Of a stretch of DNA of 64,000 nucleotides, positions 8,416-62,233 are shown in pieces. The notes below the pieces were generated by a model that saw nothing but the letters and a program-made list of their open reading frames with translations, did not search any database and was not told the DNA's origin. A program made the translations under genes and the position numbers. Source of the stretch: Terriglobia bacterium. GTDB lineage: Bacteria; Acidobacteriota; Terriglobia; JAIQFV01. The stretch lies in assembly GCA_020073085.1 (NCBI GenBank), contig JAIQFV010000008.1, forward strand, positions 62,001-126,000, in the 5' to 3' direction. Numbering within the stretch: position 1 is the stretch's first letter; every line of letters begins with the position of its first letter.

Positions 8416-11400
8416 ATGCCTTATTCATATCGAAGAGGTGTCCAATCCCACAGGTCCATTTCCATTTCAGGTTCCATGCTGGTCTTGCTGGTTACTCTTC
8501 TGGGATCTATTGGACAGTCCAACGCCGCCCAAGGGTGTAGTTCCCCCAACTTCTTGGTGGCCCCATCCCTAGGGGTTCTCTCGAACCCTTGGTTGATTGC
8601 TGTGGAGGATTTTAACAAGGATGGAATCCCGGATCTGGCATCCGTTGATAGCTCCAGAATATCGATAGTGTTGGGGAACGGGGACAATACATTTAGACCA
8701 TCGAACACCTACACAGCCGGAACCCATCCCGATTCGCTTGCAACAGGAGACTTCAATGGAGACGGCTTTCCCGATCTGGCTGCCGCCAGCAGCAACTCCG
8801 ATGACATCTACATCTGGCTCGGAAATGGGGACGGGACCTTTCGCTCCGCGCCCAGCTTGAAGACGGGGGGTCAGCAGAATGTTCGGGCACTCTACATAAA
8901 CGACTTCAATAATGATGGACGAATGGACTTGGCAGTACTTAGTGACTACTCCACACGCGGGGTCATTGTCCTCCTGGGTAACGGGAATGGCACCTTTGGT
9001 CCTGGCAATCTGATCGATACCACCGTCCAACCTCTCTCCCTCGCGGTTGGAGATTTCAACGGGGATGGTAAGCTCGACCTGGCTCTTATGACCAACCTCC
9101 CCGACACCAGTTTATTGGTGATGTTAGGAAATGGGGACGGCACCTTCCAGCGATCGAAAACATACAATTCGGGCAATGCATATTCAGTCGCTGCGGGGGA
9201 CTTTAATCGCGACGGTAAAGTCGACATTGTCGTCGGAAGCATGTATCCAGGAAACGGAATTTCGATTCTCTTGGGAAATGGAGATGGGAGTTTCCAAAAT
9301 CCCGTCAGTTATGCAGCAGGGCTTTATACGTATGGTGTGCTTGTCGGTGATTTCAACGGGGACGGTAACCCGGATGTGGCCGCAGCAAACGACGGATCGG
9401 GAGACGTTTCAATATGGCTGGGTCGAGGAGATGGGACATTGAATGCGGCACAAAACTATGGCGCCGGACGCGGTGTGAAATTCCTCGTCCAAGCAGATTT
9501 CAATAGAGACGGAAAGGTCGATTTGCTTGCCGGACCGAGCCTGTCGCTGCTGGTTGGAAATGGGGATGGGACGTTTCGTGGGTTGGTAAATTACAGTGTG
9601 GGGAGAGTCCCATCTTCAGTGGCGGTGGCGGATTTCAACGGGGATGGCAAACCTGATCTGGCAGTGGCCGATGCCGCCACCCAAACAGGGACCCAGGGCG
9701 ATGTTTCCATCCTCCTTGGAACCGGAGACGGTTCGTTCCTTCCTCCGGTCCGTTATCCGGCAGGAACTCAACCGCGATTCATTTCCACGGCGGACTTCAA
9801 CAACGATGGACGGACCGACGTGGCCGTTGCAGATATTAATACAAACAAGGTGTGGATCCTGCTGGGTAATGGCGATGGTTCTTTTCAACCTGCGGTCGGC
9901 AAGGACGTGGCCAGTTACAATCCGAAGGCGTTAGTCATTGCAGATTTTAATGCCGATGGGAATTCCGACCTGGCGGTCGTGGGAACTTCCTACGTGACGG
10001 TTCTCCTGGGTAATGGCGATGGAAGTTTTCAACCGCTCATCTACTACACGGTTGGACTTGTCCAGAGTGTTACGGCCGGCGATTTTAATGGAGACGGCAA
10101 ACTAGACCTGGTGGTGGGGAGCGACTATTATGATCAGCGCATCTCGGTCCTGTTTGGAAACGGCGATGGAACATTTCAACCGCCCCTGGTGACCGCCTCA
10201 GGCATGGTGCCTGTCTTTCTTACTGCCGGGGATTTTGATCAGGATGGGAAAATGGATCTGGCCATGGCGGGTCCGTTCTCCGGCGGCCTCTCGGTTTTCC
10301 GCGGCAATGGGAATGGGACGTTCCAAGCCCCGCTTAGGTATGCGACCGGCTATAACCCCTATTCGATTGTTGTGGCTGATCTCAACGGTGACGGGAAGAG
10401 TGACCTGGCGGTGGCGAATGTGGACTCGCCTAACACAAATCCTGGAAGCATTTCCCTGCTTCTGGGGAATGGGAATGGAACTTTCCAACCGGCTGTAAAT
10501 TATGTCGTGGGTGCTAACCCCCGAGGCATTGCCGCAGGGGATTTCAATAGGGACGGGAAGATTGACCTCGTTACGGCAAATCAAGGATCAGATAGTGTCT
10601 CGATCCTGATTAATACGTGCTCAACTCCGGGTTGCTCGAACATCTCCATCAGTTCCAGCTCGCCATCCCAGCCCGTGGTGGGCGCCCCGTACAGTTCATC
10701 CCTGACTGCGAGCGGGGGAGTGCCGCCCTATACCTTCATCCTCAGCTTCGGTCCCTTGCCTGGTGGAATCACTCTTTCTCCTTCGGGCACCTTGTCCGGT
10801 GTGCCAAACATAGCGGGGCAGTTCAACTTGACAGTAACGGCGACTGATTCTCAAGGTTGCTCCAAAGGCTTCTCTTTCATCCTGGGAATTCAACCCGCCC
10901 AGACTACGACGACTTTAGCCACCTCCTTGAATCCTTCGTTATTGGGACAGATGGTGACACTCACGGCAACCGTCTCGGTGAATCCCCCTTCATCAGGGAG
11001 CCCCACGGGCAAGGTAGTCTTCTGGGATGCCGGAACCAAAATGGGCGAAGTTTCTGTCACTAACGGCTCCGCCTCGTTAACGACCTCGAGTTTGATCGCG
11101 GGTGAGCACCGTCTCGAAGCAAGTTATTTTGGAGACACCAACTTCACTGAAAGTCGCTCTTCGACCTTGGTTCAATCCGTAACCGCGGGGACAGTTGATT
11201 TGTCTCTGACAAACACAGCTCTGCAAAATCCTGTGGATGCAGGATCGAACTTCACCTATCGGATTTCGGTCACGAATCTGACTTCCAGCCCAGCCACAAA
11301 CGTTACGGTGTCGTCCCCCCTCCCAACTTCCACAACCTATCAATTGCTCTCAGCTCCGACACCCTGGACCTGTTTTCTTCCCTCAGTTGGAACTTCGGGA

Positions 11401-47793: not shown

Positions 47794-48234
47794 TCTGGCC
47801 TTCCCCATAATTTTCTTGCGTCCTCTATTCGTCGGTCCTTCCCTCTTCTCATTTCGTGCTCTGGGACCCGCCTTCTGGAGCTTCTCCTCGATCTTCGAAG
47901 CGGCACCAAGAGATCGCCCTGGCACGCTCTTGGAGTGGATTACTCCCGCTCCCCCTGGCTGGAGGGCTGCGGCGTACATCCAGTATTTTTCACCGCCATT
48001 TTTGCCTCAGGCGCCCCGACTGGCATCAAAACCTCGAAAAGCTACCAAGAGTGCCTCTCCCTTTTGGTCGCGGGTTCGGAACGACCGGGAGTGCAATCAT
48101 CCCAAGTAAAAAGTCCGATTATTCCCTGCTTGGGGGTCAAAATGTCCTCTCTACCATCTTGGCCGGACCATTTCATACCTGTCAAATTTTCCACCTCCGA
48201 ACCCTTTTTTTGCAACCTCTCGATGAAACACTCT

Positions 48235-48247
48235 GTTGCACTGCAAC
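48235..48247. promoter_or_regulatory. GTTGC-N3-GCAAC palindrome
   Basis: GTTGCACTGCAAC is a variant of the GTTGCATGCAAC palindrome found at 36770 and 55328, and has the same position relative to a CRP/FNR-type site downstream. Confidence 0.35.
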
Positions 48248-48377
48248 GGTGGCATTCCGAGGCTTCCGGTATTAGCATTTTCAATTTCAGCTAATCCTTT
48301 GATTCTAAATATAATTCTTACGCAGCCTTTTCTTTGACTTCCAGACTTCATTGGCGTACGAATTGCTGAATCTGTAT

Positions 48378-48391
48378 GTGAATTATTGCAC
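48378..48391. promoter_or_regulatory. CRP/FNR-type palindrome with one mismatch
   Basis: GTGAATTATTGCAC differs by one base from GTGAA-N4-TTCAC. It lies about 240 bases before the decaheme cytochrome start. Confidence 0.35.
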
Positions 48392-48423
48392 TAAGGTTCG
48401 CCATTGCCAGCAGTTCGGTGCAA

Positions 48424-48438
48424 TGGCAGACGGAATGC
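48424..48438 (+). promoter_or_regulatory. Possible sigma54 (RpoN) -24/-12 promoter
   Basis: TGGCAGACGGAATGC matches the invariant GG and GC at the right spacing for a sigma54 promoter, on the same strand as the decaheme gene. It is a single short motif, so chance occurrence is possible. Confidence 0.3.
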
Positions 48439-48624
48439 TTACGAATCGAACATTGAAGCAAGGAAGTAGTTGCAAATGATTAATGACAACTCCGGTCTAG
48501 ATTGGCTAGAATTTGCCCTTGCTTCAAGCTCGCCTCTCTTAAGGCTGCACGTTCAAGTTGTCATTCCCGGAAACACCCAGCTTCTTTGAGCATTCCACCT
48601 AGTATGAACTACAAGGAGATTACT

Positions 48625-49599
48625 ATGACCTCATCCACGAGCCCGCTGAAAGCGATCAAAATGACGCTCATCAGCGGCTTGGTGCTTGTAGGACTTGTGG
48701 GCGCCTTTTCCCTATCCTTCTCGAAATCGGCAAAGCCCGACAAGGGAAAAACTCCGCAGGCTACATCGGCGAATTACAAGGCGGAGGATTATGTCGGGGC
48801 TGAGACCTGCAAGACCTGCCACGAAGAGATATACAACAACTTCCAAAAGACGGGCCACTTCAAGCTGACGCGATATGGAAACTGGACGGCCGACAACAAG
48901 GGCTGCGAGGCCTGTCATGGCCCGGGCAAAGCTCACGTGGATGCAGGTGGCGATAAGACCAAGATCCATACGTTCGAGGACCAGTCAGCCAAACAGATCT
49001 CTGAAACATGTCTCCGTTGCCACGCCGGAAAAGAGGAGCACAACAACTTCCGCCGGGGGGAACACTGGCGGAATGATGTGAGCTGTATCAACTGCCATGC
49101 GCCGCATTCGGCGACGGCGACGGCTCAGAAGATGCTGGTCCAGAAAGAGCCGATGCTGTGCTTCTCCTGCCACAACGAAATCAAAGCGCAATTCGCCATG
49201 CCTTTCCGTCACAAGGTCATCGAAGGCACCATGAAGTGCACCGACTGCCACAATCCTCACGGAGGGTTTGAACAAAAGCAGGTGAGGCTGGCAACCGGCG
49301 GCGACGCCCCCTGCATGAAATGTCACGCGGACAAACAGGGACCCTTTGTATTTGAGCATGCCCCGCTGAGGGAAGAGGGTTGCACGATTTGCCATATCCC
49401 GCACGGGTCGAACAATGCAAAACTGCTGAAACGCAATGAGGTGCGGATCCTCTGCCTGGAGTGCCACAGCAATGCCGGCACGGTGGGAGCCCCTGATACC
49501 CCCTCGTTCCACAACCAGGCGACCGTGCGCTTCCAGAACTGCACTACGTGTCATGCCAAGATCCACGGGTCGAATCTCGATCGATTCTACTTCCGCTGA
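48625..49599 (+). CDS. DmsE-type decaheme c-type cytochrome
   Basis: A 324-residue protein with ten CxxCH heme motifs: CKTCH, CEACH, CLRCH, CINCH, CFSCH, CTDCH, CMKCH, CTICH, CLECH and CTTCH. An N-terminal hydrophobic segment (ISGLVLVGLVGAFSLSFS) exports it to the periplasm. AAGGAG lies eight bases before the ATG at 48625; frames from 48502 or 48604 are less likely. DmsE/MtrA-type decahemes fill outer-membrane barrels and carry electrons through them. The next gene, 49 bases on, encodes a barrel, which fits that role. Confidence 0.92.
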   Translation: MTSSTSPLKAIKMTLISGLVLVGLVGAFSLSFSKSAKPDKGKTPQATSANYKAEDYVGAETCKTCHEEIYNNFQKTGHFKLTRYGNWTADNKGCEACHGPGKAHVDAGGDKTKIHTFEDQSAKQISETCLRCHAGKEEHNNFRRGEHWRNDVSCINCHAPHSATATAQKMLVQKEPMLCFSCHNEIKAQFAMPFRHKVIEGTMKCTDCHNPHGGFEQKQVRLATGGDAPCMKCHADKQGPFVFEHAPLREEGCTICHIPHGSNNAKLLKRNEVRILCLECHSNAGTVGAPDTPSFHNQATVRFQNCTTCHAKIHGSNLDRFYFR

Positions 49600-49648
49600 G
49601 GCTTGAGGGGCTTATACCGCTAACGATATTTTGGGAGAAACGCACATT

Positions 49649-51658
49649 ATGAAAAATAAAATCGGATTCACGCTTTTGATCGTGCTGGGGATCGCGCTGG
49701 GAGCCTTGGTGGTCCGTGCACAATCCACTCCCCCCTCCGGCGAAACGATCCTGGGGAATTATACCGTGACCCAGGACGCCGAGTTCGGGGTGCGGTTTTT
49801 GGGCAGAGATGGGAATGACAACAAATACCGCAACGATCTGAATTACGGCCGCGGTTTCCGGCTCTTCAATTACGATTTCCTGGCGCGGTCGAAGGACGGC
49901 GACGGAGGCTTATTCGATTTATTCCGCGTCACAGCCCTCGGCTGGGGCGGAGATCCCAACGAGTATTTGCGGGTGGATGTCGAGAAGAACAAGTGGTACC
50001 GCTTTGATGCGAACTTCCGCCAGTTTGACTACTTTAACAACCTCACGAACCTGGCCTTGAATCAGCACCTCGCCGATAACAACCGAAAATTCGGTGATTT
50101 CAATCTGGCGCTCTTCCCCGACAATCAGCGCTTCAAGTTTTATGTCGGTTACACGATGGACCAAAGCAACGGGAATGCGATCACCACGTACGATTATCAG
50201 CGCGATGAGTTCCCGATCCTGTCCCCCATCCGGTCCGTGGCCAACGACTGGCGGGTTGGTTTTGATGCCAAGTTGTGGGTGTTTGATGTTTCTTTTCTCC
50301 AGGGCTACAGAATTTTTAAAGACGACACGACTTATGTGGTTCCCTCCCTCAATGTGGGGAACAATCCGACCAACACGAGCGTGATCAATTTCCTGCAGCG
50401 GGATGTCCCCTCGCGCACTCACATGCCCTTTACCCGCTTCAGTGCCCATACGCTGATCAAGAAGAAGCTCGACTTTACCGGTCGGTTTATCTATACGACC
50501 GGAACCACGACGTATAACCTTGCGGAGCTCGTGAAGGGGGTCGATGCCTCGGCCAACAATATTCTCCTGGATCTTTTCCAGGGGGCCGGGAGCGCCCGGC
50601 GGCCTAACGGGATTGGTGACTTAGGCATAAGTCTGTTCGCCACCGACCGATTGACCATCTCGGAGACGTTCCGAGTGAACAGTTTCCGCATTACGGGCGG
50701 GGCGAACATCCTCGAATCCTTGTTCCGCAATCGCACCACCGCTTTTGGAACAACCACCCTTCCGCCTCTCTTTACCCCCAGCCTGACCTTCGAGCTGGTT
50801 GGATATCGTCTGTTCTCCAACTACGTTGAGGGGGACTACAAGTTCAGTTCGAGATTCTCCGGCCATGTCGGCTATCGTTATACGGCGCGGCGAGTGGAGT
50901 TGGGGACCTCGATTCAACCCCCTCTGGGAACGCCGCTCGATACCGACACACAGTTCAACCACACCAATTCGGTGATTGTGGGGTTCAAGGCGCGTCCCGC
51001 TTCCATCTGGACTGTCTTTTTTGACTTTGAGCGGGGCACGGCCGACAACGTGTTTACCCGGCTCTCCAATTACAACTACAACAACTTCCGCGTGCGCACC
51101 AGCGTGAAACCAACCAAGACGCTCACTTTCAATGCCTCGATGGTGACCCGGGACAATAACAATCCCGCGCTCACGCTGGCGGGCCAGAATTTTGGTGTGG
51201 ATTCCAAGGGACGGATTTTCAGCGCCTCCGCGGATTTCACGCCCAGCTCCAAGTTCTCTCTTACCGCGGGCTATACCTATAACAGGCTCACCTCCGACTC
51301 CTCCATCATCTTCTTTCTTGGCGGCGTCCAGACCACGGGGGATAGCTTGTATTTCCTGAGAGACCATTACTTCTATTTCAATTCCCACGTGCAGCTTCAT
51401 CCGCGGGTGGGCCTCTCCTTCGGCTATCGCATCGAGAAGGATAACGGCCAGGGAGACCAGGTTGCGACTTCAACGAGCCAGCTGATTTCGTCTTATCCTC
51501 TTCAATTCCACTCGCCCGAGGTCCGGTTGACTGTTAAGCTTCATGAGCATCTGGATTGGAACGGCGGGTTTCAGCGGTTTGACTACAAGGAGAAATTCCT
51601 GAACAACCAGAACTACCGAGCGAATCTGCCTTACACTTCGCTTCGGCTCTACTTCTGA
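49649..51658 (+). CDS. MtrB/PioB-like outer-membrane beta-barrel porin
   Basis: A 669-residue protein. A signal peptide (MKNKIGFTLLIVLGIALGALVVRAQ) is followed by many alternating amphipathic strands rich in aromatic and polar residues (for example YTARRVELGTSIQPPLG, FTLSAGYTYNRL-like hairpins), ending in YTSLRLYF with the C-terminal Phe of barrel proteins. It lies downstream of the decaheme gene with GGGAGA at its ribosome site. In Shewanella, Rhodopseudomonas and Geobacter such barrels sheath a decaheme cytochrome. No MtrB-type N-terminal CxxC is seen, closer to PioB. The membership is inferred from layout, not from a search. Confidence 0.76.
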   Translation: MKNKIGFTLLIVLGIALGALVVRAQSTPPSGETILGNYTVTQDAEFGVRFLGRDGNDNKYRNDLNYGRGFRLFNYDFLARSKDGDGGLFDLFRVTALGWGGDPNEYLRVDVEKNKWYRFDANFRQFDYFNNLTNLALNQHLADNNRKFGDFNLALFPDNQRFKFYVGYTMDQSNGNAITTYDYQRDEFPILSPIRSVANDWRVGFDAKLWVFDVSFLQGYRIFKDDTTYVVPSLNVGNNPTNTSVINFLQRDVPSRTHMPFTRFSAHTLIKKKLDFTGRFIYTTGTTTYNLAELVKGVDASANNILLDLFQGAGSARRPNGIGDLGISLFATDRLTISETFRVNSFRITGGANILESLFRNRTTAFGTTTLPPLFTPSLTFELVGYRLFSNYVEGDYKFSSRFSGHVGYRYTARRVELGTSIQPPLGTPLDTDTQFNHTNSVIVGFKARPASIWTVFFDFERGTADNVFTRLSNYNYNNFRVRTSVKPTKTLTFNASMVTRDNNNPALTLAGQNFGVDSKGRIFSASADFTPSSKFSLTAGYTYNRLTSDSSIIFFLGGVQTTGDSLYFLRDHYFYFNSHVQLHPRVGLSFGYRIEKDNGQGDQVATSTSQLISSYPLQFHSPEVRLTVKLHEHLDWNGGFQRFDYKEKFLNNQNYRANLPYTSLRLYF

Positions 51659-51730
51659 GCGATGTCAACGGCGCTCGGGGTAGAACTATTGAATTAACAA
51701 GGATTATGTTTATCGAATATCTCCGAGAGG

Positions 51731-51760
51731 CCCGCCGGTCGAAGCCATAACAGCGGCGGG
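51731..51760. terminator. Hairpin after the porin gene
   Basis: CCCGCCG (51731-51737) pairs with CGGCGGG (51754-51760) around a 16-base loop; GATTTT follows at 51771. It could end the decaheme/porin transcript before the next cytochrome unit. Confidence 0.4.
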
Positions 51761-51810
51761 GATCTCCTGAGATTTTAAAGTCTTGAATCGAGATCTTAAC
51801 CAGCCACTCC

Positions 51811-51824
51811 GTGAAATTCTTCAC
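51811..51824. promoter_or_regulatory. CRP/FNR-type palindrome, GTGAA-N4-TTCAC
   Basis: GTGAAATTCTTCAC is an exact match, centred 37 bases before the cytochrome start at 51855. Three bases later comes ACGTTAACGT and the shared leader AGAAAGGA, as at 54151-54186. Confidence 0.6.
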
Positions 51825-51854
51825 ATGACGTTAACGTCAGAAAGGATCATTTTT

Positions 51855-52808
51855 ATGGTAAAGAAGCTCATTTTAGCATTTACGTTCTTACTTATTCTTG
51901 CAAGTCTATCTTTGGCCGCCAATCCCACCCCGGCACCGCTCAATGTTCCGACCTATAACTATACGGAGTCGAACGGCTGTCCGAGTTGCCACTTTACGTC
52001 GGGCGCGGGGGGCGATCACATGATGGAAGCGGTGGGCGTGACGATCGACAAGGCGAACACCGCCTTCACGTTGTCTGGAAGCGGTTGGCGTGCTTCCCGG
52101 CATGCTCAATCCAATCATGGATCCACTCAGAACACCTTCTGTGCAAAATGCCACTCTCCTATCCAGGCCACACCTCAAGCGACCTTTAACAATGGATTCA
52201 TGGAGAACACCGCGTTGATAGCTGATGGCACGATGGAAGGTGTGACTTGCGCGGGATGCCACCCGCCTCATGGTACTGTTCCCCGGCTGGGGATCTATCA
52301 TTACGGCCAGGACAAGACCAAGGCGGCATCTTACACATTGGTTGCCGAAGACGAACAAGACCTGTTGTGCCTTAACTGCCACGTCAATCGACACAACGAA
52401 AGCAATGTGGCCTTCAAGCGCATGTACGACGCCGGTGTGCAGTGCACCGATTGCCACATGGCTGTTTATGGTCAGATTGTAAATAGCACGGTGATGAAGC
52501 GCTTCCATGATTTCAAGGTCGCAGAGAACCTTCCGTATTCCTGCGGTGTCGACGGTGCGGTTTCAGGATTCCGTTGCCATCCCGGTTTCAGCACGGAAGC
52601 AACACTCGCTTTCCTGCCCTTCTTGAAGGAGCAGCACAGTGATTGGTGGCCACTGAATCCGAGTGCCGGCAAAAGGGCAGGTACGACGGCTGCAAGGACA
52701 CTGACAACACCAGCGGATTACATGGACCTGTGGAAAGAGATCCAGAACCGGACCACCCGGGTATCGGTCGAAGCAAAACGAGTGGATCGAATCCCGGCTG
52801 CCCAGTAG
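51855..52808 (+). CDS. Multiheme c-type cytochrome (five CxxCH, one C-X10-CH), paralog A
   Basis: A 317-residue protein. A signal peptide (VKKLILAFTFLLILASLSLAA) leads into five CxxCH motifs: CPSCH (residue 42), CAKCH (96), CAGCH (132), CLNCH (172) and CTDCH (197). Near the end Cys230 and Cys241-His242 form CGVDGAVSGFRCH, conserved in the paralog at 54196, and a possible sixth heme site. The start at 51855 has AGAAAGGA nine bases upstream. It is a periplasmic or outer-surface electron carrier; partners are unknown. The gene has its own promoter region and terminator. Confidence 0.85.
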   Translation: MVKKLILAFTFLLILASLSLAANPTPAPLNVPTYNYTESNGCPSCHFTSGAGGDHMMEAVGVTIDKANTAFTLSGSGWRASRHAQSNHGSTQNTFCAKCHSPIQATPQATFNNGFMENTALIADGTMEGVTCAGCHPPHGTVPRLGIYHYGQDKTKAASYTLVAEDEQDLLCLNCHVNRHNESNVAFKRMYDAGVQCTDCHMAVYGQIVNSTVMKRFHDFKVAENLPYSCGVDGAVSGFRCHPGFSTEATLAFLPFLKEQHSDWWPLNPSAGKRAGTTAARTLTTPADYMDLWKEIQNRTTRVSVEAKRVDRIPAAQ

Positions 52809-52854
52809 CCCTGTTTGTTCGCTTGACGGCAGCACTCTGAATTCTGTTTATTTG

Positions 52855-52905
52855 GGCCGCGTAGGAATTGAGGGAAGGCGACCCTTCATCAGTTCTTTAG
52901 CGGCC
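52855..52905 (+). terminator. Terminator of cytochrome paralog A
   Basis: GGCCGC (52855-52860) pairs with GCGGCC (52900-52905), followed by TTT. It resembles the terminator after paralog B in sequence and length, consistent with duplication of the whole unit. Confidence 0.55.
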
Positions 52906-52921
52906 TTTCTTCATTATATTA

Positions 52922-52939
52922 TTGTGAATTTGTTCACAA
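52922..52939. promoter_or_regulatory. CRP/FNR-type palindrome, TTGTGAA-N4-TTCACAA
   Basis: TTGTGAATTTGTTCACAA has perfect 7-base arms, centred 55 bases before the Tat-cytochrome start at 52986. Confidence 0.62.
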
Positions 52940-52985
52940 ATAAGAGAGTACGGTCGATCTCAAACTCAAACCTAGGAGGTAGTAA

Positions 52986-53774
52986 ATGGACTCATCCAAT
53001 AGAAGAAGTTTCGTCAAGAACGTGGGTGGAATCGCCATCGGTGCAGTCGCTGGATCCGGGGTCACGAGACTTATTTCGTCGGACGAAGCGCCGCTGGCTG
53101 TTCCGGCTTTGCCTTGGCCCTATGTGGAATTGGATCCGATTGCAGTAGCCGAGAGAGCGTATCTGGGCTATTCCAACGGTGGGTGCATGTACGGGGCATT
53201 CGAAGGCATTATCGGGGAGTTACGCACCAAGCTGGGAGCACCATTCGATACCTTTCCCACGACCATGATGAAATACGGCGGTGGGGGGGTCGCCGGCTGG
53301 GGTAGTCTTTGTGGAGCTCTGAATGGCATCGCCGCAGCCATTTATCTTCTCAAGGATTCAAAAACCGGAAACGATCTGATTAGCGAAATCTTCAATTGGT
53401 ACGGAGTAGAGAAGCTCCCGAATTACAGACCCAAGACCCCAAAGTTCGAGATTGCCACCACGGTTTCGGAGTCCCAACTCTGTCATGTGTCCGTCACGAA
53501 GTGGGCTAATCACACGGGTTTCAAGACGGGCTCTCCCGAGCGAGCTGAAAGATGCGCCTGGCTGACTGCTTCTGTCGCCAAGCGGACAACAGAACTGTTG
53601 AATCAACAACTCTCCGGGACCTATCAGCGGACACACCTGACGCCTGCTAATGTTACTTTGTGTTTGCAGTGTCATGGACCCAGTGGCACGGTAGCCAATG
53701 TCCATATTACCGGGGGTCAAAGTAACTGTACCTCTTGTCATCATCGCCACTGGGCTGGAGGAGTCGAGTTCTGA
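52986..53774 (+). CDS. Tat-exported split-Soret-like diheme cytochrome (C_GCAxxG_C_C family-like)
   Basis: A 262-residue protein. NRRSFVKNVGGIAIGAVAG is a twin-arginine signal. The middle resembles the C_GCAxxG_C_C family: GGCMYGAFEGIIGEL near residue 62 and GWGSLCGALNGIAAAIYLL near 100. The C-terminus has two heme motifs, CLQCH (residue 226) and CTSCH (248). Split-Soret cytochromes of sulfate reducers have this layout and two hemes. Apo-cytochromes are usually Sec-exported unfolded, so a Tat signal suggests another cofactor or a folded partner. A strong AGGAGG precedes the ATG. Confidence 0.8.
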   Translation: MDSSNRRSFVKNVGGIAIGAVAGSGVTRLISSDEAPLAVPALPWPYVELDPIAVAERAYLGYSNGGCMYGAFEGIIGELRTKLGAPFDTFPTTMMKYGGGGVAGWGSLCGALNGIAAAIYLLKDSKTGNDLISEIFNWYGVEKLPNYRPKTPKFEIATTVSESQLCHVSVTKWANHTGFKTGSPERAERCAWLTASVAKRTTELLNQQLSGTYQRTHLTPANVTLCLQCHGPSGTVANVHITGGQSNCTSCHHRHWAGGVEF

Positions 53775-53899
53775 TTCCTGAGCTTGGTCGCGTTCGCTTA
53801 TTCAGGGGCCAGGGAGCCTGAACACAGTCTTGGTATTAGAGTCAATCGTCTTCCCTGCCCCCAATCTTGACCTGAAGCCTCCCGCTTAATCCGGGGATG

Positions 53900-53951
53900 G
53901 GGCCGCATTCGATCTTGATGGAAGGTACACTCCATTGATTCGATGCGGCCC
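53900..53951 (+). terminator. Terminator of the split-Soret-like gene
   Basis: GGGCCGCAT (53900-53908) pairs with ATGCGGCCC (53943-53951), with an inner TGGA/TCCA stem, followed by TTTT. Confidence 0.65.
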
Positions 53952-54095
53952 TTTTGCTTCTCTATGAACGTCTCTGAATACTCCGTCACGGGAATTAAGG
54001 TGTCACCAAAACGACATTTTGTTGTAAGATGAGGATGAGAGGATTTTGAACAGCCGCGCCTGCAGAGTGGCTGTATCTTGAAATAAGGAGGCCCA

Positions 54096-54128
54096 ATGGC
54101 CATGGCTGAAAACAATAAGAGTCCCTAG
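54096..54128 (+). CDS. Ten-codon mini-ORF with strong ribosome-binding site
   Basis: AAGGAGG sits directly upstream of ATGGCCATGGCT, and the frame ends at TAG after ten codons (MAMAENNKSP). CCCTAGGG and a T8 run follow at once. It may be a leader peptide or the remnant of a lost gene start; expression is unproven. Confidence 0.3.
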   Translation: MAMAENNKSP

Positions 54129-54148
54129 GGCTTTTTTTTGAACAATTA

Positions 54149-54166
54149 TTGTGAAAATATTCACAA
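54149..54166. promoter_or_regulatory. CRP/FNR-type palindrome, TTGTGAA-N4-TTCACAA
   Basis: TTGTGAAAATATTCACAA has perfect 7-base arms. The centre is 38 bases before the start at 54196. ACGTTAACGT follows after three bases, with the same spacing as before paralog A. Confidence 0.62.
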
Positions 54167-54195
54167 AACGTTAACGTCAGAAAGGACCCTCACTT

Positions 54196-55179
54196 ATGCC
54201 CAAGAAATTCATTGTTTTGTTTGGCTTCATGTTTTTCATTCTTACAATTTTAACGCTTATTACATTTGCAGCCACGCCGACACCGGCGCCCTTGAACCCT
54301 CCAACTTACAATTACTCCGAGGCCAACGGTTGCGTTCGATGTCATTTCACGAGCGGCGTGTCTGCCGATCACATGTTGGACGTCGTCGGGGTGACGATCG
54401 ACGCCAACAACACCGCATTCTCACTCTCCGGGAACGGTTGGTTCGCATCACGCCACGCACAATCCAACCACGGGTCGACACAGAATACCTTCTGCGCCAA
54501 GTGCCACTCTCCCCTTCAGTCCACTGCCCAGGCAACATTCAACAACGGATTTATGGAGAATACGGCTTTGATCCCGGATGGTGTGGTGGAGGGTGTAACT
54601 TGTGCGGCTTGTCACCCATCTCACACTGTGGCTGTCGCTCTTGGCCGCCGAGTGGCCATATATAAGCCCGGCGGGGATAAGAACAAGCCCGAGGCTTACC
54701 AGGTTGTCCTCGAAGGCCAGGATGATCTGCTCTGCCTCAACTGCCACGTCAACCGCCACAATGAAGCCAATGCGGCGTTCAAACGCATGTACGATGCGGG
54801 CGTTGAATGCGTTGATTGCCACATGGCTCCGTATGGGCTGACCAACAACGGCCTGGGAACGGTTCAGAAGCGCTTCCACGATTTCAAGGTGGCGCAGAAT
54901 CTTCCCTATTCGTGTGGTGTGGACGGATCGGTGAGTGGATTTGTTTGCCATGCGGGATTCAACAAGGAATCGACTCTCGCCTTTCTTCCCTACATGAAGG
55001 AGCAACACAGCGATTGGTGGCCCCTGAATCCCAGCACCGGCAAGAGGGCTGCGACAACGGCTGTGGGTGCGCTACAGACTTCGGAAGACTATATGGCACT
55101 CTGGAAGCGAATCCAAGAGCGAGGCGGACAGCTGCCCCTTGAGCACAAACAAATTGATCGGAAAGAAATTCATCCCTAG
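54196..55179 (+). CDS. Multiheme c-type cytochrome (five CxxCH, one C-X10-CH), paralog B
   Basis: A 327-residue paralog of the protein at 51855. Signal peptide VLFGFMFFILTILTLITFAA, then CVRCH, CAKCH, CAACH, CLNCH and CVDCH in the same order and context (for example FKRMYDAGVECVDCHM). Cys240 and Cys251 repeat the C-X10-CH motif (CGVDGSVSGFVCH). An extra short loop (GRRVAIYKPGGDKN) accounts for most of the length difference. Promoter block and terminator are also copied, pointing to duplication of a whole transcription unit. Confidence 0.86.
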   Translation: MPKKFIVLFGFMFFILTILTLITFAATPTPAPLNPPTYNYSEANGCVRCHFTSGVSADHMLDVVGVTIDANNTAFSLSGNGWFASRHAQSNHGSTQNTFCAKCHSPLQSTAQATFNNGFMENTALIPDGVVEGVTCAACHPSHTVAVALGRRVAIYKPGGDKNKPEAYQVVLEGQDDLLCLNCHVNRHNEANAAFKRMYDAGVECVDCHMAPYGLTNNGLGTVQKRFHDFKVAQNLPYSCGVDGSVSGFVCHAGFNKESTLAFLPYMKEQHSDWWPLNPSTGKRAATTAVGALQTSEDYMALWKRIQERGGQLPLEHKQIDRKEIHP

Positions 55180-55223
55180 CTATCATATATAATCTAATCA
55201 CGACATTTGGTTTATCCACTCTT

Positions 55224-55280
55224 GGGCCGTAACAGGAATGAAGGCAGGCACACTGCTGACATCCCCATACGGCCCTTTTT
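55224..55280 (+). terminator. Terminator of cytochrome paralog B
   Basis: GGGCCGT (55224-55230) pairs with ACGGCCC (55269-55275), followed by TTTTT. Confidence 0.65.
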
Positions 55281-55327
55281 CATGCAGTATTGCCCTCAAT
55301 CTGCAACGTGCCGCATGTAACAAATCT

Positions 55328-55339
55328 GTTGCATGCAAC
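55328..55339. promoter_or_regulatory. GTTGCATGCAAC palindrome
   Basis: Identical to 36770-36781; about 319 bases before resB and 88 bases before a CRP/FNR-type near-match. Confidence 0.45.
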
Positions 55340-55426
55340 CGAACGGGAAACTGCGAATATCGCCGGAAATGGGACGAATTGTCCTGATCTTATACAGTCA
55401 ATGGGACTTAAATTCCATATGAACAA

Positions 55427-55440
55427 ATGAATCTTTTCAC
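55427..55440. promoter_or_regulatory. CRP/FNR-type palindrome with one mismatch
   Basis: ATGAATCTTTTCAC differs from GTGAA-N4-TTCAC at the first base. It lies about 213 bases before resB. Confidence 0.35.
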
Positions 55441-55646
55441 ATGAATGGCAGAGGACGTGCCCTATCCAATTGTGGAGAAAGAGGGTTAGAAAGGAAACTA
55501 GCGATGGGACCTTCTCACGCACGGTCATTTCAGATGAGGCCGCATTGGCAGGATAATTCCCTTTCTTAGCCTGAAGGAGCAAAGGGAATGCACGTTTTAG
55601 GCGTATCGTTCTTGAGCATTCGCACTACGGTAGGGTTACCTCCTCT

Positions 55647-57278
55647 ATGAGACCAAACGAAAAGACACAGATGGCCAACAAATGTTCGCGGATTGAAGAA
55701 TCAACAGATCAATCTCACCAGAAATCCAGTCCCGTAACTGAAAAAGGAGAAGAAAAGGCCGGTCCTGCAAACGGAGGATTTCTCGATGCTTCCATTCGAT
55801 TCCTCAGTACCGTCCGATTGGGAATCTACCTATTGATCATTCTCGTGGGGATCTCGTTTGCTGGAACGATCATCCCTCAGAGGCCGAATACCTCGCCGGA
55901 GAACCTCCAACGCATGTTCGCCCCCGCCAACCTGGTACTTATGGACCGGATTGGAATTCTTGATATCTTTCACGCCTGGTGGTTCAAGGCGCTGCTGACG
56001 CTGCTCGGCCTTAACATCGTCTTTGCATCACTTGACCGGTTTTCTCATGCTTGGCGATACATCAGGCGCCCTGCCAAATGGCTCACGGAAACAGTGATTC
56101 GAGCCCAGCACCAGCATGCCGAAGTCCACCTCCGCACCTCCCTCGACCAATCGGAGCGCACGGTCCAAGAGCAACTGAAGAAATGCCTCGGGCACCCTCA
56201 GGTCACCGAAAGAGAGGGGCGCAAAGTCATCTTCTCACAACGACAGGTCTATTCGCGCCTGGCGGCTTATGGAATCCATCTCAGCCTTCTGGTCATTTTC
56301 GCCGGGGGATTGATCGGGCTGGAATTCGGTTACAGGGCGCGGATTTCCTTAAGCGAGGGTGAATCCGCATCAAAAGTCATACTCTTCGATACCGCCCGGA
56401 GTGTAGTGGAGGCTGCAGGGGAAGCGAGGTTCATCGAGCGGGAGATCCCCTTCACGCTGAGCCTGGACAAGGCGGAAGTCGTCTTTAACAACCCCAGAGA
56501 ATCCAGCCTTCTTCACCGCGATGACATCCAGAGCCCCGGGGTCGTGAAGAATTGGTATTGCACGATGTCAATATGGGAAAACGGTGTCAAGCAAGGCACC
56601 CAGGTGGTGGCGGTCAATCAACCGCTGTCATATCGGGGATTCCGGTTCTTTCAAAGTGGCTTTGATTTCGGGAATGGACTGAAGGAATTTACTTTTCAGG
56701 TCCGTTTAAAGGGAGCGGGGGGACAACCTTCCACGACCATTTACAGGGTTCGAGGGGGAGACTCCTTCGAGATCAAAGAAGCCCATTTGATCGCCACGCC
56801 GGTTCGGTCGGGAATAATGCCGCAAGCGGATCTGCCGTTTGCCTTTCTCAGCCTCCAGGGTAAGGATGGGAAGCCGGCTCTCCAGTTTCCGGTCTTCGAT
56901 GAACCCACGACCCAGAAAATGCGCCAGGGTGCGAATGACACCTCGCCGCTGCCGAAGCCTCCTGACGGAATGGAAATCTTCCTGATCGATGCCATCCCGG
57001 AATTCACGACGACCCTTCAAGTTTCGCGCGATCCCGGAGTCACGACGGTGTGGGCGGGATGCATTCTCCTGATGGTGGGATTGACGGTTGCCTTCTACTT
57101 CTCGCATCAACGGCTGTGGGCGATGTTGATCCCCGGTCAGGACGGCACGACGGTTGTTCTTGGCGGTGATTCCAGCAAGAACCGGTCTGCTTTCGCAAAA
57201 AAATTCCAGCACCTGGTCGACTCGATGGAGATGGGGGAGGAATCCTCATCCCAGAAGCGAGAATTCAAGGAGAAGTAA
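55647..57278 (+). CDS. resB: Cytochrome c biogenesis protein ResB
   Basis: A 543-residue protein. After about 50 polar residues come RFLSTVRLGIYLLIILVGISFAGTIIPQ (helix 1), a second and third helix near residues 110 and 205-225, a long extracytoplasmic region, and a last helix near 460-485. This is the ResB/Ccs1 layout. With CcsB it passes heme outward and ligates it to CxxCH apocytochromes. It lies four bases before ccsB and amid the genes that need it. System II (ResBC) is implied. Confidence 0.88.
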   Translation: MRPNEKTQMANKCSRIEESTDQSHQKSSPVTEKGEEKAGPANGGFLDASIRFLSTVRLGIYLLIILVGISFAGTIIPQRPNTSPENLQRMFAPANLVLMDRIGILDIFHAWWFKALLTLLGLNIVFASLDRFSHAWRYIRRPAKWLTETVIRAQHQHAEVHLRTSLDQSERTVQEQLKKCLGHPQVTEREGRKVIFSQRQVYSRLAAYGIHLSLLVIFAGGLIGLEFGYRARISLSEGESASKVILFDTARSVVEAAGEARFIEREIPFTLSLDKAEVVFNNPRESSLLHRDDIQSPGVVKNWYCTMSIWENGVKQGTQVVAVNQPLSYRGFRFFQSGFDFGNGLKEFTFQVRLKGAGGQPSTTIYRVRGGDSFEIKEAHLIATPVRSGIMPQADLPFAFLSLQGKDGKPALQFPVFDEPTTQKMRQGANDTSPLPKPPDGMEIFLIDAIPEFTTTLQVSRDPGVTTVWAGCILLMVGLTVAFYFSHQRLWAMLIPGQDGTTVVLGGDSSKNRSAFAKKFQHLVDSMEMGEESSSQKREFKEK

Positions 57279-57281
57279 ATC

Positions 57282-58766
57282 ATGAGTCGTGTTCATACCG
57301 GGCCATTGACCGAGGATGGAGGGGCCGCCCCAAAGAAGATCATTTGGCCCATGCTTTCCTGCCTTCTCGGAATGGTGTTACTGGCGCTGTTTGTGATCCC
57401 GAACATTCTCAAGAGTGGTGCGGGCTTCCTGAGTCCGGGAGCTCTGCTCAGTTTGGCGATCATTTTTTACGTCGGCTCCTCGGCATTGCTGATCAGCTAT
57501 CTGGTCCGGCGCGTGGAGCGCCTGGTCCAGGTGGCCAAGGGGCTGATTCTGGTGGCGTTCATCTTTCACTCGGGTGCCATTGCAGCCCACTGGATGGTTG
57601 CAAGACGTCCGCCAATCTCGAACATCTTCGAAATGCTGATCAGTTTCGCCTGGGCCCTCATCGCCCTGGATTATATTTTCCAGCGAGTCTACAAGCTCAA
57701 AATTCTCAGTTCGTTCAGCGTCCCCATTGCCACTCTGGCGGTTCTGCTGTCGACCATCCTGCCAACAGACCCGGAGCGGACGCTTCCGCCGGCGCTTCAA
57801 AGCGTCTGGCTCTACATCCATGTCACCTTTGCCATCTTCAGTTATGTGGCCTGTGCCATTGCGTTTGTGGCGTCGATTCTCTACCTCGTGAAGGACCGCG
57901 TGAAGCTGGAAACCTTCGGCATGATCACACAGGCGCTCACGGTCAGCACCATCGTGGGCATTGACTGGCTTGGAAATGCGGACACGGCCCACCGCCATTT
58001 CAACATTCTGCTGCGGGGGGAGTTCTTCCTCGGCCTTCTTTACAAGGGCCGTGACATTGCCATCCCCGAGATGGAGAAGACTTACCTGGTGGCCTCACTG
58101 CCCTTCGCCGGCAATGTTTTGCGCGTCTCCCTGCTGATAGCCTTCATTGGACTGGTTCTGTACCTGGTAAAAGCTTCCTCGAAAACGCTGATTCGGGTGA
58201 CCCAGCTGGGATTTCTCGCACAGGTGGCATCGGTGGTCGCCATCCTGGCCACCACCCTCAGCAGCTCGACGCAGCAGATGATCGACAGGATTCCAGGACA
58301 AGTCCTGGGCCAGTTCGATGCTGCGGCCCTGGCAAAGGTGGCCACGGTCAGCATCAAGTCCAATCCATTCACCTTTGCGGGACTCCTCGTGGCGCTGGTG
58401 ACCACGCTGTTGTTTCTTATCCTCAATTCACGTCATGAGGCCATCGTTTCTTCGCTCCCCGAAGGCAAGCTGCTCGACGAGGTCAATTACAAGGTCGTCA
58501 CGATCGCGTTTCCTTTGCTCACCCTGATGATTGCCACGGGGGCCTTCTGGGCGAATCGCACGTGGGGTTCCTACTGGAACTGGGATCCCAAGGAGGTGGG
58601 GGCCCTGATCACCTGGCTGGTCTATGCGGCCTACCTGCACATGCGCATCGTTCGCGGCTGGGCCGGCCGGCGCGCCGCCTATTTCGCCATCATCGGTTTT
58701 GTGTTTGTCCTGTTCACGTTTATTGGAATCAGTTATCTGCTCCCGGGCCTCCATGCGTATGCATGA
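57282..58766 (+). CDS. ccsB: Cytochrome c biogenesis protein CcsB/ResC (heme handling)
   Basis: A 494-residue protein with many membrane helices. [28 protein letters not shown] near residue 430 is the tryptophan-rich WWD heme-binding signature of the CcmC/CcsA superfamily. Conserved His residues flank it in neighbouring helices. It follows resB by three bases, with its ribosome site (AAGGAGAAG) inside the end of resB. The two work as one heme-attachment machine. Confidence 0.9.
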
Positions 58767-58880
58767 GCGCGGTACCCCAAACCGGAAATCACCCCGGGCC
58801 GGAGAGCGCATCAAGCTTCATCCTCTCGCGGGATGAGGGTAGTCCAGTTCATCACATCACAGATCAAGGAGATGTTTCTC

Positions 58881-59087
58881 ATGAAACTCGTAAAAATGCT
58901 CATCCTCTTCTTCGCTGCCGTGACGCTTTCCTTCACCCTGCTGTATGCCAAGGCCGAATACATGAAGAAAGAGGGGAAGCCTTGCAGTTACTGCCACTTG
59001 AAAGACAACAAGACGTTGAATGACGTGGGCAAGTGTTATGCAAAGAATCACAAGCTCTCAGATTGCAAGTCCCTGGAAGCCAAGTAG
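58881..59087 (+). CDS. Tiny monoheme c-type cytochrome-like protein
   Basis: A 68-residue protein. A signal peptide (MKLVKMLILFFAAVTLSFTLLYAKA) leaves a mature chain of about 43 residues with one heme motif, CSYCH (Cys35, Cys38, His39), and two more cysteines (GKCYAKNHKLSDC). AAGGAG lies nine bases before the ATG at 58881. It sits after ccsB, in the cytochrome run. It may be a minimal electron shuttle or a maturation factor. Confidence 0.72.
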   Translation: MKLVKMLILFFAAVTLSFTLLYAKAEYMKKEGKPCSYCHLKDNKTLNDVGKCYAKNHKLSDCKSLEAK

Positions 59088-59223
59088 GCGAAGGGCATTG
59101 ATCGGACAAGCTGCCATCAGGGTCACCGGCCTGAACGCAGTTCGCAGGGGATGGATTTCTGCGCAACGTGTTCGGGCGGAAGTGTTTTTGCGGAACGCAA
59201 CGGTCTCCGAAGGGTGAGACAAA

Positions 59224-60111
59224 ATGGACGGGATCAGAGAAAAGAAAGTCGTTGCCCTGACCTCTCTTGTGGCCGCCGTTTTACTCACCCTGTTCAAAAC
59301 CCTTGTGGGTGTGGCGACTGGAAGCCTCGGAATCCTGTCCGAAGCGGCACACTCCGGCCTCGATTTCACTGCGGCGCTGATGACCTACTTCGCGGTTTCG
59401 ATTTCAGGCAAGCCTGCCGACGATTCCCACCACTATGGACACGGGAAATTTGAAAGCTTTTCAGCCCTCTTCGAAGTGCTCCTGCTGCTGCTCACCTGCG
59501 GCTGGATCATTTACAAGGCCGCTTATCGTCTGGCGGGACACCGTGTGGAAGTGGAAGTCAATGTCTGGAGCTTTGCCGTCATGGGCATCGCGATCGTGGT
59601 GGACATCACCCGCTCGAAGGCCTTGATGCGGGTGGCCCGACGGTATGGAAGTCAGGCCCTGGAAGCCGACGCGTTGCACTTCCAGAGTGATATATACAGC
59701 TCGCTCGTCGTCATTTTCGGACTCATTTTTACAAAGGCTGGCTTCCCGGTCGGCGATCCACTGGCGGCACTGGGTGTTTCCATCCTCGTCATGATCGCCT
59801 CCGTCAGATTGGCAATGCGGTCCAGCCAGGTATTGTTGGATCGGGCCCCCTCCGGGGTTGAGGATCATATCCGCGAGATCCTCAGTTCGCTGCCCCAGGT
59901 CGTGGAAATTCGAAAAATACGGGTGCGCGATGCAGGAACGCAAATGTTTGTTGACGTCACGATTGCGGTTAATGGCGATATGTCACTGGACGAATCACAC
60001 GCCGTCGCAGATGAATCGGAACGCCAGATCGCCGCGGTGATCTCCAACGTGGATGTGACGGTCCATATCGAGCCCGCGCCTCATGCACCGGCTCTGAATG
60101 AACGACCTTGA
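59224..60111 (+). CDS. Cation diffusion facilitator (CDF) metal transporter
   Basis: A 295-residue protein with six likely helices. EAAHSGLDFTAAL and ADALHFQSDIYSSLV carry the HxxxD metal sites of helices 2 and 5, and the C-terminal cytoplasmic domain (VVEIRKIRVRDAGTQMFVDVTIAV) is typical. It exports Zn2+, Fe2+ or similar ions. Its place in the cytochrome run hints at iron handling, but that is inference. It ends about 100 bases before the likely start of the CbcL-like gene. Confidence 0.87.
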   Translation: MDGIREKKVVALTSLVAAVLLTLFKTLVGVATGSLGILSEAAHSGLDFTAALMTYFAVSISGKPADDSHHYGHGKFESFSALFEVLLLLLTCGWIIYKAAYRLAGHRVEVEVNVWSFAVMGIAIVVDITRSKALMRVARRYGSQALEADALHFQSDIYSSLVVIFGLIFTKAGFPVGDPLAALGVSILVMIASVRLAMRSSQVLLDRAPSGVEDHIREILSSLPQVVEIRKIRVRDAGTQMFVDVTIAVNGDMSLDESHAVADESERQIAAVISNVDVTVHIEPAPHAPALNERP

Positions 60112-60208
60112 AATGGAATGGCTGAAAGAGGCTTTCACCCGGCGGCCACTCTTCCGGGTTGATCCCCGCTCAAGAATTCCGGCTACTCTTAGCCCATTGG
60201 ATCTGACC

Positions 60209-62233
60209 ATGAATATTCGTACCTTAAGTTTACGGCGCCTGCAATCCTTCTGCTTCCTCATTCCTCTGTCTTCCCTTTTGCTGTTGCTTTTTTCTTCGGC
60301 GGCTTGGGGCGCGGTCAAGAATTCCGAATGCCTGAGCTGTCACGCGATGGAGGGGTTCCAATCTCCCGGTGGTAAGAACCTGTTTGTCAATCAGAAACTC
60401 TTTGAAAAGAGCGTCCACTCCTTCCTGAATTGCACGGATTGCCACTCCGATGTTTCAAAGACACCGCATCCATCTCAGTTGGCCAAAGTGAACTGCGGCT
60501 CCTGCCACGAGGAACAACAGAAGAAATTTGAGATGTCGATTCATGCCGGAAAAATCATCCACAACCCTGCGGACGGTGGGAACGGAAGAAAGGCTTTCAC
60601 GTGCGCGGACTGCCATAGCCCTCATACAATCCTGCCCAAGACTGATCTGGCCTCCGCCACACACCACACCAACGTGCCCGCCCTGTGTGGCACCTGCCAC
60701 CAGAATCTGCAGTTTGTGATCGAATCTCCCATGGCGGAAACCTCCAAGCCCTTTTTTGCCTACCGGGAAAGCATCCACGGTAAATCGGTGGCGGCGGGAT
60801 CGGAAAGGGCTGCCGTCTGTTCCGACTGCCATAACGCACACGATATCTTGCCCCCCAACAACCCGAAATCCACGATATTCAAGACCAACACCCCCGAAAC
60901 CTGCAGAAAGTGCCACGGGAACATTTACAACGAGTACAGCGATTCCGTGCACGGAAGAGCGGTGAAGCGGGGTGTTTTCAGCGCCCCGGTTTGTGTGGAC
61001 TGCCACGGCATCCACTCCATCAAATCCCACATTGATCCGAGCTCGAACGTGGCGGCTCAGGTCATCTCGCGTTCCACCTGCGGTCAGTGCCATTCAGGAG
61101 AAAAGCTCTCCGCTGAATTTGGCGTGCCGGAGAAACGTGTTTCCTCTTATTTCGCCAGCTATCACGGGCTGGAGAGCCGGGTGGGGTCGGTTGAAACGGC
61201 CAACTGTGCAAGCTGTCACGGCGTGCATCACATCCTTCCGTCCAGCGACCCGCGGTCCACGGTGAACAAGGCCAACCTGGCGCAAACCTGCGGTCAGTGC
61301 CATCCCGGGGCCAGCGAGAATTTTGCCAAGGGTCGCATCCATCTGCTGAAAGGAGATGGGGATGCTGCAGGCGGACGGATCATCACCGCCGTCACACAGT
61401 TTTACGTGTGGCTGATCTTCCTCGTGGTGGGGGGGATGATCATTCACAATGCGATTGATTATTTCGCCCGGGCGCGCCTGCGCTTGCGGGAGGATCTGCT
61501 GCATGGAAAGGCCACCATCGAACGCATTCATTTGAGCGGCCGTATTCAACACGGGGTCATGTTGACGAGCTTCATCCTGCTGGTCATCACCGGATTTGCC
61601 CTGAAATTCCCAGACGCCCAGTGGGTGCACTCCGTTTTCCTCGGAAACGCCGCTGTCCGCGGCGTGGTCCACCGGATGGCCGCTGTGATATTCATTGGCC
61701 TCGCCCTCTTCCACCTTTACTTCATCCTTCTGACGACCCGGGGCCGGCAGGAATTGAAGGCCTGGCTTCCCCGGCTTCAGGACGTCCGCGACCTGCCCCA
61801 AATGATCAGCTACAACCTGGGACTTACAGAGGAACACCCGCGGTTCGATCGCTTCAGCTACGTGGAAAAGATGGAGTATTGGGCGCTGGTGTGGGGGACC
61901 CTCATCATGGTGGCGACCGGACTCGCCCTCTGGGCGAAAACCTTCGCTCTGAATTACATCCCCAAATGGGGTCTGGATGTCTTTGAAGTTGTTCATTACT
62001 ACGAGGCCTGGCTGGCCACGCTCGCCATCATCGTCTGGCACCTCTATATGGTCCTGATGCGACCGGGCTCGTACTCGTCGAGCTGGATGTGGCTGACCGG
62101 AAAGATTACCCGCGAAGAAATGATCGAGGAACATCCCCTGGAATGGGAACGGATGGAGCGCGAAGCAAGGTCAGCCGGAAAAGCTGAAAAGGAGGAGGCA
62201 CCGGAGATCCCTCAACCTGCCCGTTCGACATGA
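60209..62233 (+). CDS. CbcL-like quinol oxidoreductase: eleven-heme cytochrome c fused to cytochrome b
   Basis: A 674-residue protein. A signal-anchor (FCFLIPLSSLLLLLFSSAAWG) precedes eleven CxxCH motifs (CLSCH, CTDCH, CGSCH, CADCH, CGTCH, CSDCH, CRKCH, CVDCH, CGQCH, CASCH, CGQCH). From about residue 395 five helices form a cytochrome b of the HydC/FdnI-type, with conserved His in GRIQHGVM, VVHRMAAVIF and VVHYYEAWLA. In Geobacter CbcL such a fusion takes electrons from the quinone pool into the periplasm. The upstream frame from 60098 overlaps the CDF gene and is less likely. Confidence 0.85.
   Translation: MNIRTLSLRRLQSFCFLIPLSSLLLLLFSSAAWGAVKNSECLSCHAMEGFQSPGGKNLFVNQKLFEKSVHSFLNCTDCHSDVSKTPHPSQLAKVNCGSCHEEQQKKFEMSIHAGKIIHNPADGGNGRKAFTCADCHSPHTILPKTDLASATHHTNVPALCGTCHQNLQFVIESPMAETSKPFFAYRESIHGKSVAAGSERAAVCSDCHNAHDILPPNNPKSTIFKTNTPETCRKCHGNIYNEYSDSVHGRAVKRGVFSAPVCVDCHGIHSIKSHIDPSSNVAAQVISRSTCGQCHSGEKLSAEFGVPEKRVSSYFASYHGLESRVGSVETANCASCHGVHHILPSSDPRSTVNKANLAQTCGQCHPGASENFAKGRIHLLKGDGDAAGGRIITAVTQFYVWLIFLVVGGMIIHNAIDYFARARLRLREDLLHGKATIERIHLSGRIQHGVMLTSFILLVITGFALKFPDAQWVHSVFLGNAAVRGVVHRMAAVIFIGLALFHLYFILLTTRGRQELKAWLPRLQDVRDLPQMISYNLGLTEEHPRFDRFSYVEKMEYWALVWGTLIMVATGLALWAKTFALNYIPKWGLDVFEVVHYYEAWLATLAIIVWHLYMVLMRPGSYSSSWMWLTGKITREEMIEEHPLEWERMEREARSAGKAEKEEAPEIPQPARST

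Follow-up and report, generated by a model that had tools for sequence, protein, structure and literature searches.

Two paralogous cytochromes of a soil acidobacterium, proteins A and B, are encoded in the stretch of 64,000 nucleotides that was analysed (the window), and each carries a C-X10-CH sequence after its five CXXCH motifs. This sequence is probably a real sixth heme site with a stretched motif (probability about 0.8, judged from sequence). In the proposed mechanism, A and B would be c-type cytochromes of six hemes, one N-terminal and five (II-VI) in a core resembling that of NrfA and OcwA. The C-X10-CH would have been derived from an ordinary CXXCH, that of OcwA heme 9 or NrfA heme 5, by insertion of a Gly-rich loop of 6-8 residues between its two Cys residues. 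Both Cys would make thioether bonds, the His after the second Cys would be the proximal ligand, and an invariant Met seven residues before the fifth CXXCH would be the distal ligand (His-Met). Electrons would be exchanged, in either direction, with a decaheme cytochrome of the DmsE type and a porin, both encoded just upstream, and the loop beside the end-of-chain heme would probably serve, as it does in OmcZ, for contact with a partner. Heme attachment, the ligand, the transfer role at the outer membrane, and attachment of the sixth heme by ResB-CcsB are predictions of this scheme.

The translations were read, and five CXXCH followed by C-X10-CH were present in both proteins, as the preliminary description had it. 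The features of the two genes are as follows.

51855..52808, + strand: protein A (ATG at 51855, 317 aa), predicted secreted cytochrome, predicted hexaheme
52422..52424, + strand: Met190 of protein A, invariant in 10/10 and predicted to be the distal ligand at the stretched motif
52542..52580, + strand: putative stretched heme motif of protein A, CGVDGAVSGFRCH, residues 230-242, aligned with OcwA CSSCH and NrfA CANCH
54196..55179, + strand: protein B, paralog of A (327 aa, five CXXCH and one C-X10-CH)
54787..54789, + strand: Met198 of protein B, counterpart of Met190
54913..54951, + strand: putative stretched heme motif of protein B, CGVDGSVSGFVCH, residues 240-252

The CXXCH motifs are at residues 42, 96, 132, 172, and 197 of protein A and at residues 46, 100, 136, 180, and 205 of protein B. 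The two proteins are ~70% identical, with 11 of the 13 residues of the stretched motif identical. Function had been read from conservation of the motif in this pair; because paralogs ~70% identical will share much of their sequence, the pair by itself is weak evidence of constraint, and it is the wider family, in which both Cys and the His are conserved, that lends the reading weight.

Searches of Acidobacteriota genomes, covering some 396 from across the phylum and 399 from the window's class, yielded nine further family genes, giving 11 genes in all for what is a rare family. In G001, A has an 89% ortholog and B a broken copy; two copies were found in G002 and two genes in G143, the latter from a third class, and a single gene in each of G068, G557, and G559, which belong to another class than the window's. 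The signal peptides, read from sequence, are of the Sec type with no lipobox Cys. Only the C-terminal part of the protein B ortholog of G001 (L010 ~10073-10390; G001:C106:66315-66692) is in frame, with the stretched motif kept, and the second G002 copy (L034 8751-9689; G002:C5), a CX10CH gene, is solitary, without a decaheme, porin, or ResB-CcsB gene nearby. No family relatives were found in the plasmids and viral contigs searched. Weak matches in G007, G027, G588, and G747 were assigned to other multiheme families, three of them being DmsE-like decahemes, and a third genome match to the back-translated motif (L003; 5.8 Mb genome) was discarded as chance, with no cytochrome at that place.

Ten members were aligned; the 11th gene is the broken G001 copy of B, in which the stretched motif is also present. 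Down to an identity of 33-36%, the 10/10 aligned members keep both Cys and the His, which are among the 13 invariant columns of the 60 in the stretched-motif region. The preliminary description had suggested looking for homologs lacking a Cys or the His, and 0/11 family genes do. The spacer between the two Cys is 10 residues in six genes, 9 in two, and 8 in three, reading GVDGAVSGFR and similar in the family f1 genomes, NGAYGTDAA in G143, and GVMGSMTH, GVEGSVTH, or GVDGSVIH in the G068 group. The His always follows the second Cys whatever the loop length, which is expected of a heme site and not of a disulfide. Full-length mature members have exactly 12 Cys each, made up of five CXXCH pairs and the stretched pair, with no other unpaired Cys. 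Free His 83, 180, and 218 are present in every member covering them, and free His 55, 83, 139, 180, 218, and 261 are invariant outside G143. Free His 139 and 261 are absent from the G143 members, as is His 55 from the only one of them covering that residue; therefore, not all six hemes can be bis-His in these members, and their N-terminal part may differ from that of the others. An AlphaFold2 model on the ten-member alignment was unusable (pLDDT 39).

The family profile matched residues 249-446 of OcwA (PDB 6I5B) with E=4e-6. OcwA is a cell-surface nonaheme terminal reductase of Thermincola potens and belongs to the NrfA superfamily (PMC6703420). Because cysteine-rich proteins give inflated scores, the match was compared with decoys, for which the OcwA segment was shuffled 1000 times with the CXXCH positions fixed and all else shuffled. 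The real match scored 36.4 bits against a decoy maximum of 26.8 (0/1000 decoys reached the real score), and at the level of sequence, the similarity to the OcwA/NrfA superfamily goes beyond CXXCH spacing. The direct profile match to E. coli NrfA was not significant, with 148/1000 decoys scoring as high, and for this reason the correspondence to NrfA was drawn through OcwA, from the OcwA-NrfA sequence match and the published superposition of OcwA hemes 5-9 on the NrfA hemes (PMC6703420). A joint MAFFT alignment placed, unprompted, both Cys of the stretched motif on OcwA CSSCH (ninth heme) and on E. coli NrfA CANCH (fifth heme). The aligned site reads MPDSC-SS-CHPG in OcwA, which has an ordinary motif, versus LPYSC-GVDGAVSGFR-CHPG in the family, and the flanks match (PYSC/PDSC before the spacer and CHPGF/CHPGA after it, family/OcwA). 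The same Cys pairing was obtained using a query with the spacer deleted. The HMMER full-profile alignment pairs the second Cys only, and the pairing of the first Cys rests on MAFFT and the spacer-removed query. By these alignments, the stretched site corresponds to OcwA heme 9 and NrfA heme 5. No CXXCK was found in any family member, the heme II motif being CAKCH.

OcwA heme 9 is His-Met ligated (PMC6703420), and a Met NMR signal near -3 ppm has been seen in OcwA. Seven residues ahead of the preceding heme motif, which in the family is the fifth CXXCH, OcwA has a Met; 10/10 family members share it, and NrfA has His at this place. The NrfA segment SVHWMAGVSC (PDB 6V0A) aligns ungapped with SVMYKAGVTC of OcwA, and the family reads RMYDAGVQC. 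The offset of Met190 (Cys minus 7) is the same as that of OcwA Met373 and of the NrfA His. In E. coli NrfA, this His is H275, presumably the heme 5 ligand. Met373 is put forward as the OcwA heme 9 ligand from its position, since the paper names no residue number. With OcwA heme 9 His-Met ligated and the family Met invariant at the matching place, the stretched-motif heme is most likely His-Met ligated as well, with Met190 as the predicted distal ligand.

The genes around A and B are as follows.

48502..49599, + strand: DmsE-family (MtrA-like) decaheme cytochrome (TIGR03508, 262 bits vs a cut-off of 192)
49631..51658, + strand: large protein encoded where an MtrB/DmsF-type outer-membrane porin would be expected (weak GSU2204-family match, none in Pfam)
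52986..53774, + strand: split-Soret-cytochrome-like protein between A and B (C_GCAxxG_C_C PF09719 over cut-off; TAT-type signal)
55647..57278, + strand: ResB, System II cytochrome c synthetase subunit (PF05140 over cut-off)
57282..58766, + strand: CcsB/ResC, System II synthetase subunit with the heme-handling WWD region (TIGR03144, 236 bits vs a cut-off of 188; PF01578)

In six loci, the genes directly upstream are, in conserved order, those for a DmsE-type decaheme cytochrome and a porin-like protein of 670-740 residues. This arrangement suggests a porin-cytochrome electron conduit with the A/B-type cytochrome as third partner, either outside or in the periplasm. The split-Soret-like protein (52986-53774) has two C-terminal CXXCH motifs and scored 196 bits with NF047622, below the cut-off of 400; its gene is also present in G001 and was not seen in the G002, G068, G557, or G559 loci. 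In G559 and G557 (L030, L031), one or two small cytochromes with a single CXXCH are encoded after the CX8CH gene, with more multiheme genes (8-17 CXXCH) further on. Downstream in the window, an 84-residue secreted protein with CSYCH and further Cys is encoded just after CcsB (58833-59087; no family found). A 711-residue protein at 60098-62233 is a fusion of a part with ~11 CXXCH and a formate-dehydrogenase-gamma-like cytochrome b domain, and after its gene, a sensor kinase-like frame with one CXXCH (CFSCH) is found at 62400, so that the electron-transfer cluster continues. An Rfam scan of 48000-60000 gave no match.

The odds are about even that ResB-CcsB is dedicated to the stretched site, and equally balanced for its being a housekeeping synthetase only, with no special tie to that site, which would bear on the synthetase step and not on the heme. 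A dedicated role is attractive because the atypical motifs of MccA, SirA, and NrfA need their own synthetases. The housekeeping role is countered by the presence of ccmABC and ccmE-F-H clusters elsewhere in the window's genome (Ccm gene identities read from translations), where the ResB at 55647..57278 is the only one, and by the occurrence of ResB in only 42/399 genomes of the window's class. ResB also lies just downstream of the cytochrome locus in the three family f1 genomes, which are close relatives and count about once. In favor of the housekeeping role, ResB is common in the class of G068 (133/162 genomes), where its distribution is uninformative as independent support, and it does not adjoin the CX8CH gene in the CX8CH genomes; in addition, Ccm can tolerate stretched motifs according to a review. 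The dedicated role is kept at about even odds because ResB is not at this locus in the CX8CH genomes, and most genomes of their class possess it.

For the site itself, the preliminary description had offered a sixth heme or a disulfide, and the sixth heme is supported by conservation, the OcwA/NrfA alignment, and the invariant Met. If the site were instead a relic of a lost heme, five hemes would be held and the two Cys would form a structural or redox-active disulfide. Such a bond would be chemically easy for two invariant Cys in an exported protein, spacers of 8-10 would suit a small disulfide loop, and MtrC and OmcA are reported to have redox disulfides (cited in PMC6703420). However, the adjacent His, which a disulfide would not need, is invariant in 11/11 genes, the distal-ligand position holds an invariant Met, as expected from OcwA heme 9, and the site aligns with an ordinary CXXCH that carries a working heme in OcwA and NrfA. 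Heme is favored over a disulfide on these three grounds, and the disulfide is considered unlikely.

A heme held by the second Cys only, with the first free or bound elsewhere, is very improbable. Single-thioether c hemes do exist, and the longer spacer displaces the first Cys along the sequence. The first Cys is, however, invariant, with the P-x-S-C context known from the canonical OcwA motif retained around it, and a long loop is compatible with a motif in which both Cys take part, to judge from the solved CX14CH site of OmcZ.

A heme on a stretched motif has precedents in OmcZ of Geobacter sulfurreducens (CX14CH, heme 1) and MccA (CX15CH). Among the spacings CX11CH, CX15CH, and CX17CH listed in the preliminary description, CX15CH was recovered as that of MccA; CX11CH and CX17CH were not found in the literature searched. 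A limited literature search for CX8CH, CX9CH, CX10CH, CX11CH, and CX12CH gave no relevant paper, which does not show that none exists. As far as the literature searched shows, neither spacings of 8, 9, and 10 nor a spacing that drifts inside a single family have been described. Hemes in multiheme cytochromes are usually counted by CXXCH or by CXnCH with n up to 5 (PMC12545173), and by such counting, A and B would be classed as pentaheme. Stretched motifs elsewhere are single cases, each with its own fixed spacing; here, a site with an ordinary CXXCH counterpart in a solved homolog comes in natural variants of 8, 9, and 10, allowing both the tolerance of heme synthetases for a longer loop and the need for a separate synthetase to be tested. 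The combined proposal is tentative and somewhat less probable than its opposite; in it, the spacing would drift between 8, 9, and 10 at a single His-Met heme that is homologous to heme 5 of NrfA, and, in one lineage, a Ccm genome would have retained a dedicated System II synthetase for loading that site alone.

Of the known systems, OcwA is like the family in its five-heme core, aligned in order, in the flanks of its last heme motif, and in the Met at the same place before its CVDCHM motif; a terminal role in extracellular electron transfer, as in OcwA, is plausible for the family too. It is unlike the family in having nine ordinary CXXCH and a c554-like N-terminal half, whereas in the family there is a single N-terminal heme and the last motif is stretched. 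Hemes 1-5 of the pentaheme nitrite reductase NrfA would correspond, via OcwA, to family hemes II-VI in order, and both have a helix after the last heme; unlike NrfA, the family has no CXXCK site, and the distal His of heme 5 is replaced by Met. OmcZ likewise has a loop between the two Cys of a stretched motif that carries a real heme, but the loop is of 14 residues, in a different protein family and at a different heme position. The octaheme sulfite reductases MccA and SirA share with the family the NrfA superfamily and a stretched motif, and they have a dedicated heme synthetase (CcsA1, SirEFG); they differ in their spacer of 15, their eight hemes, and their Cu active site, and SirA N589 suggests a late heme for the CX15CH.
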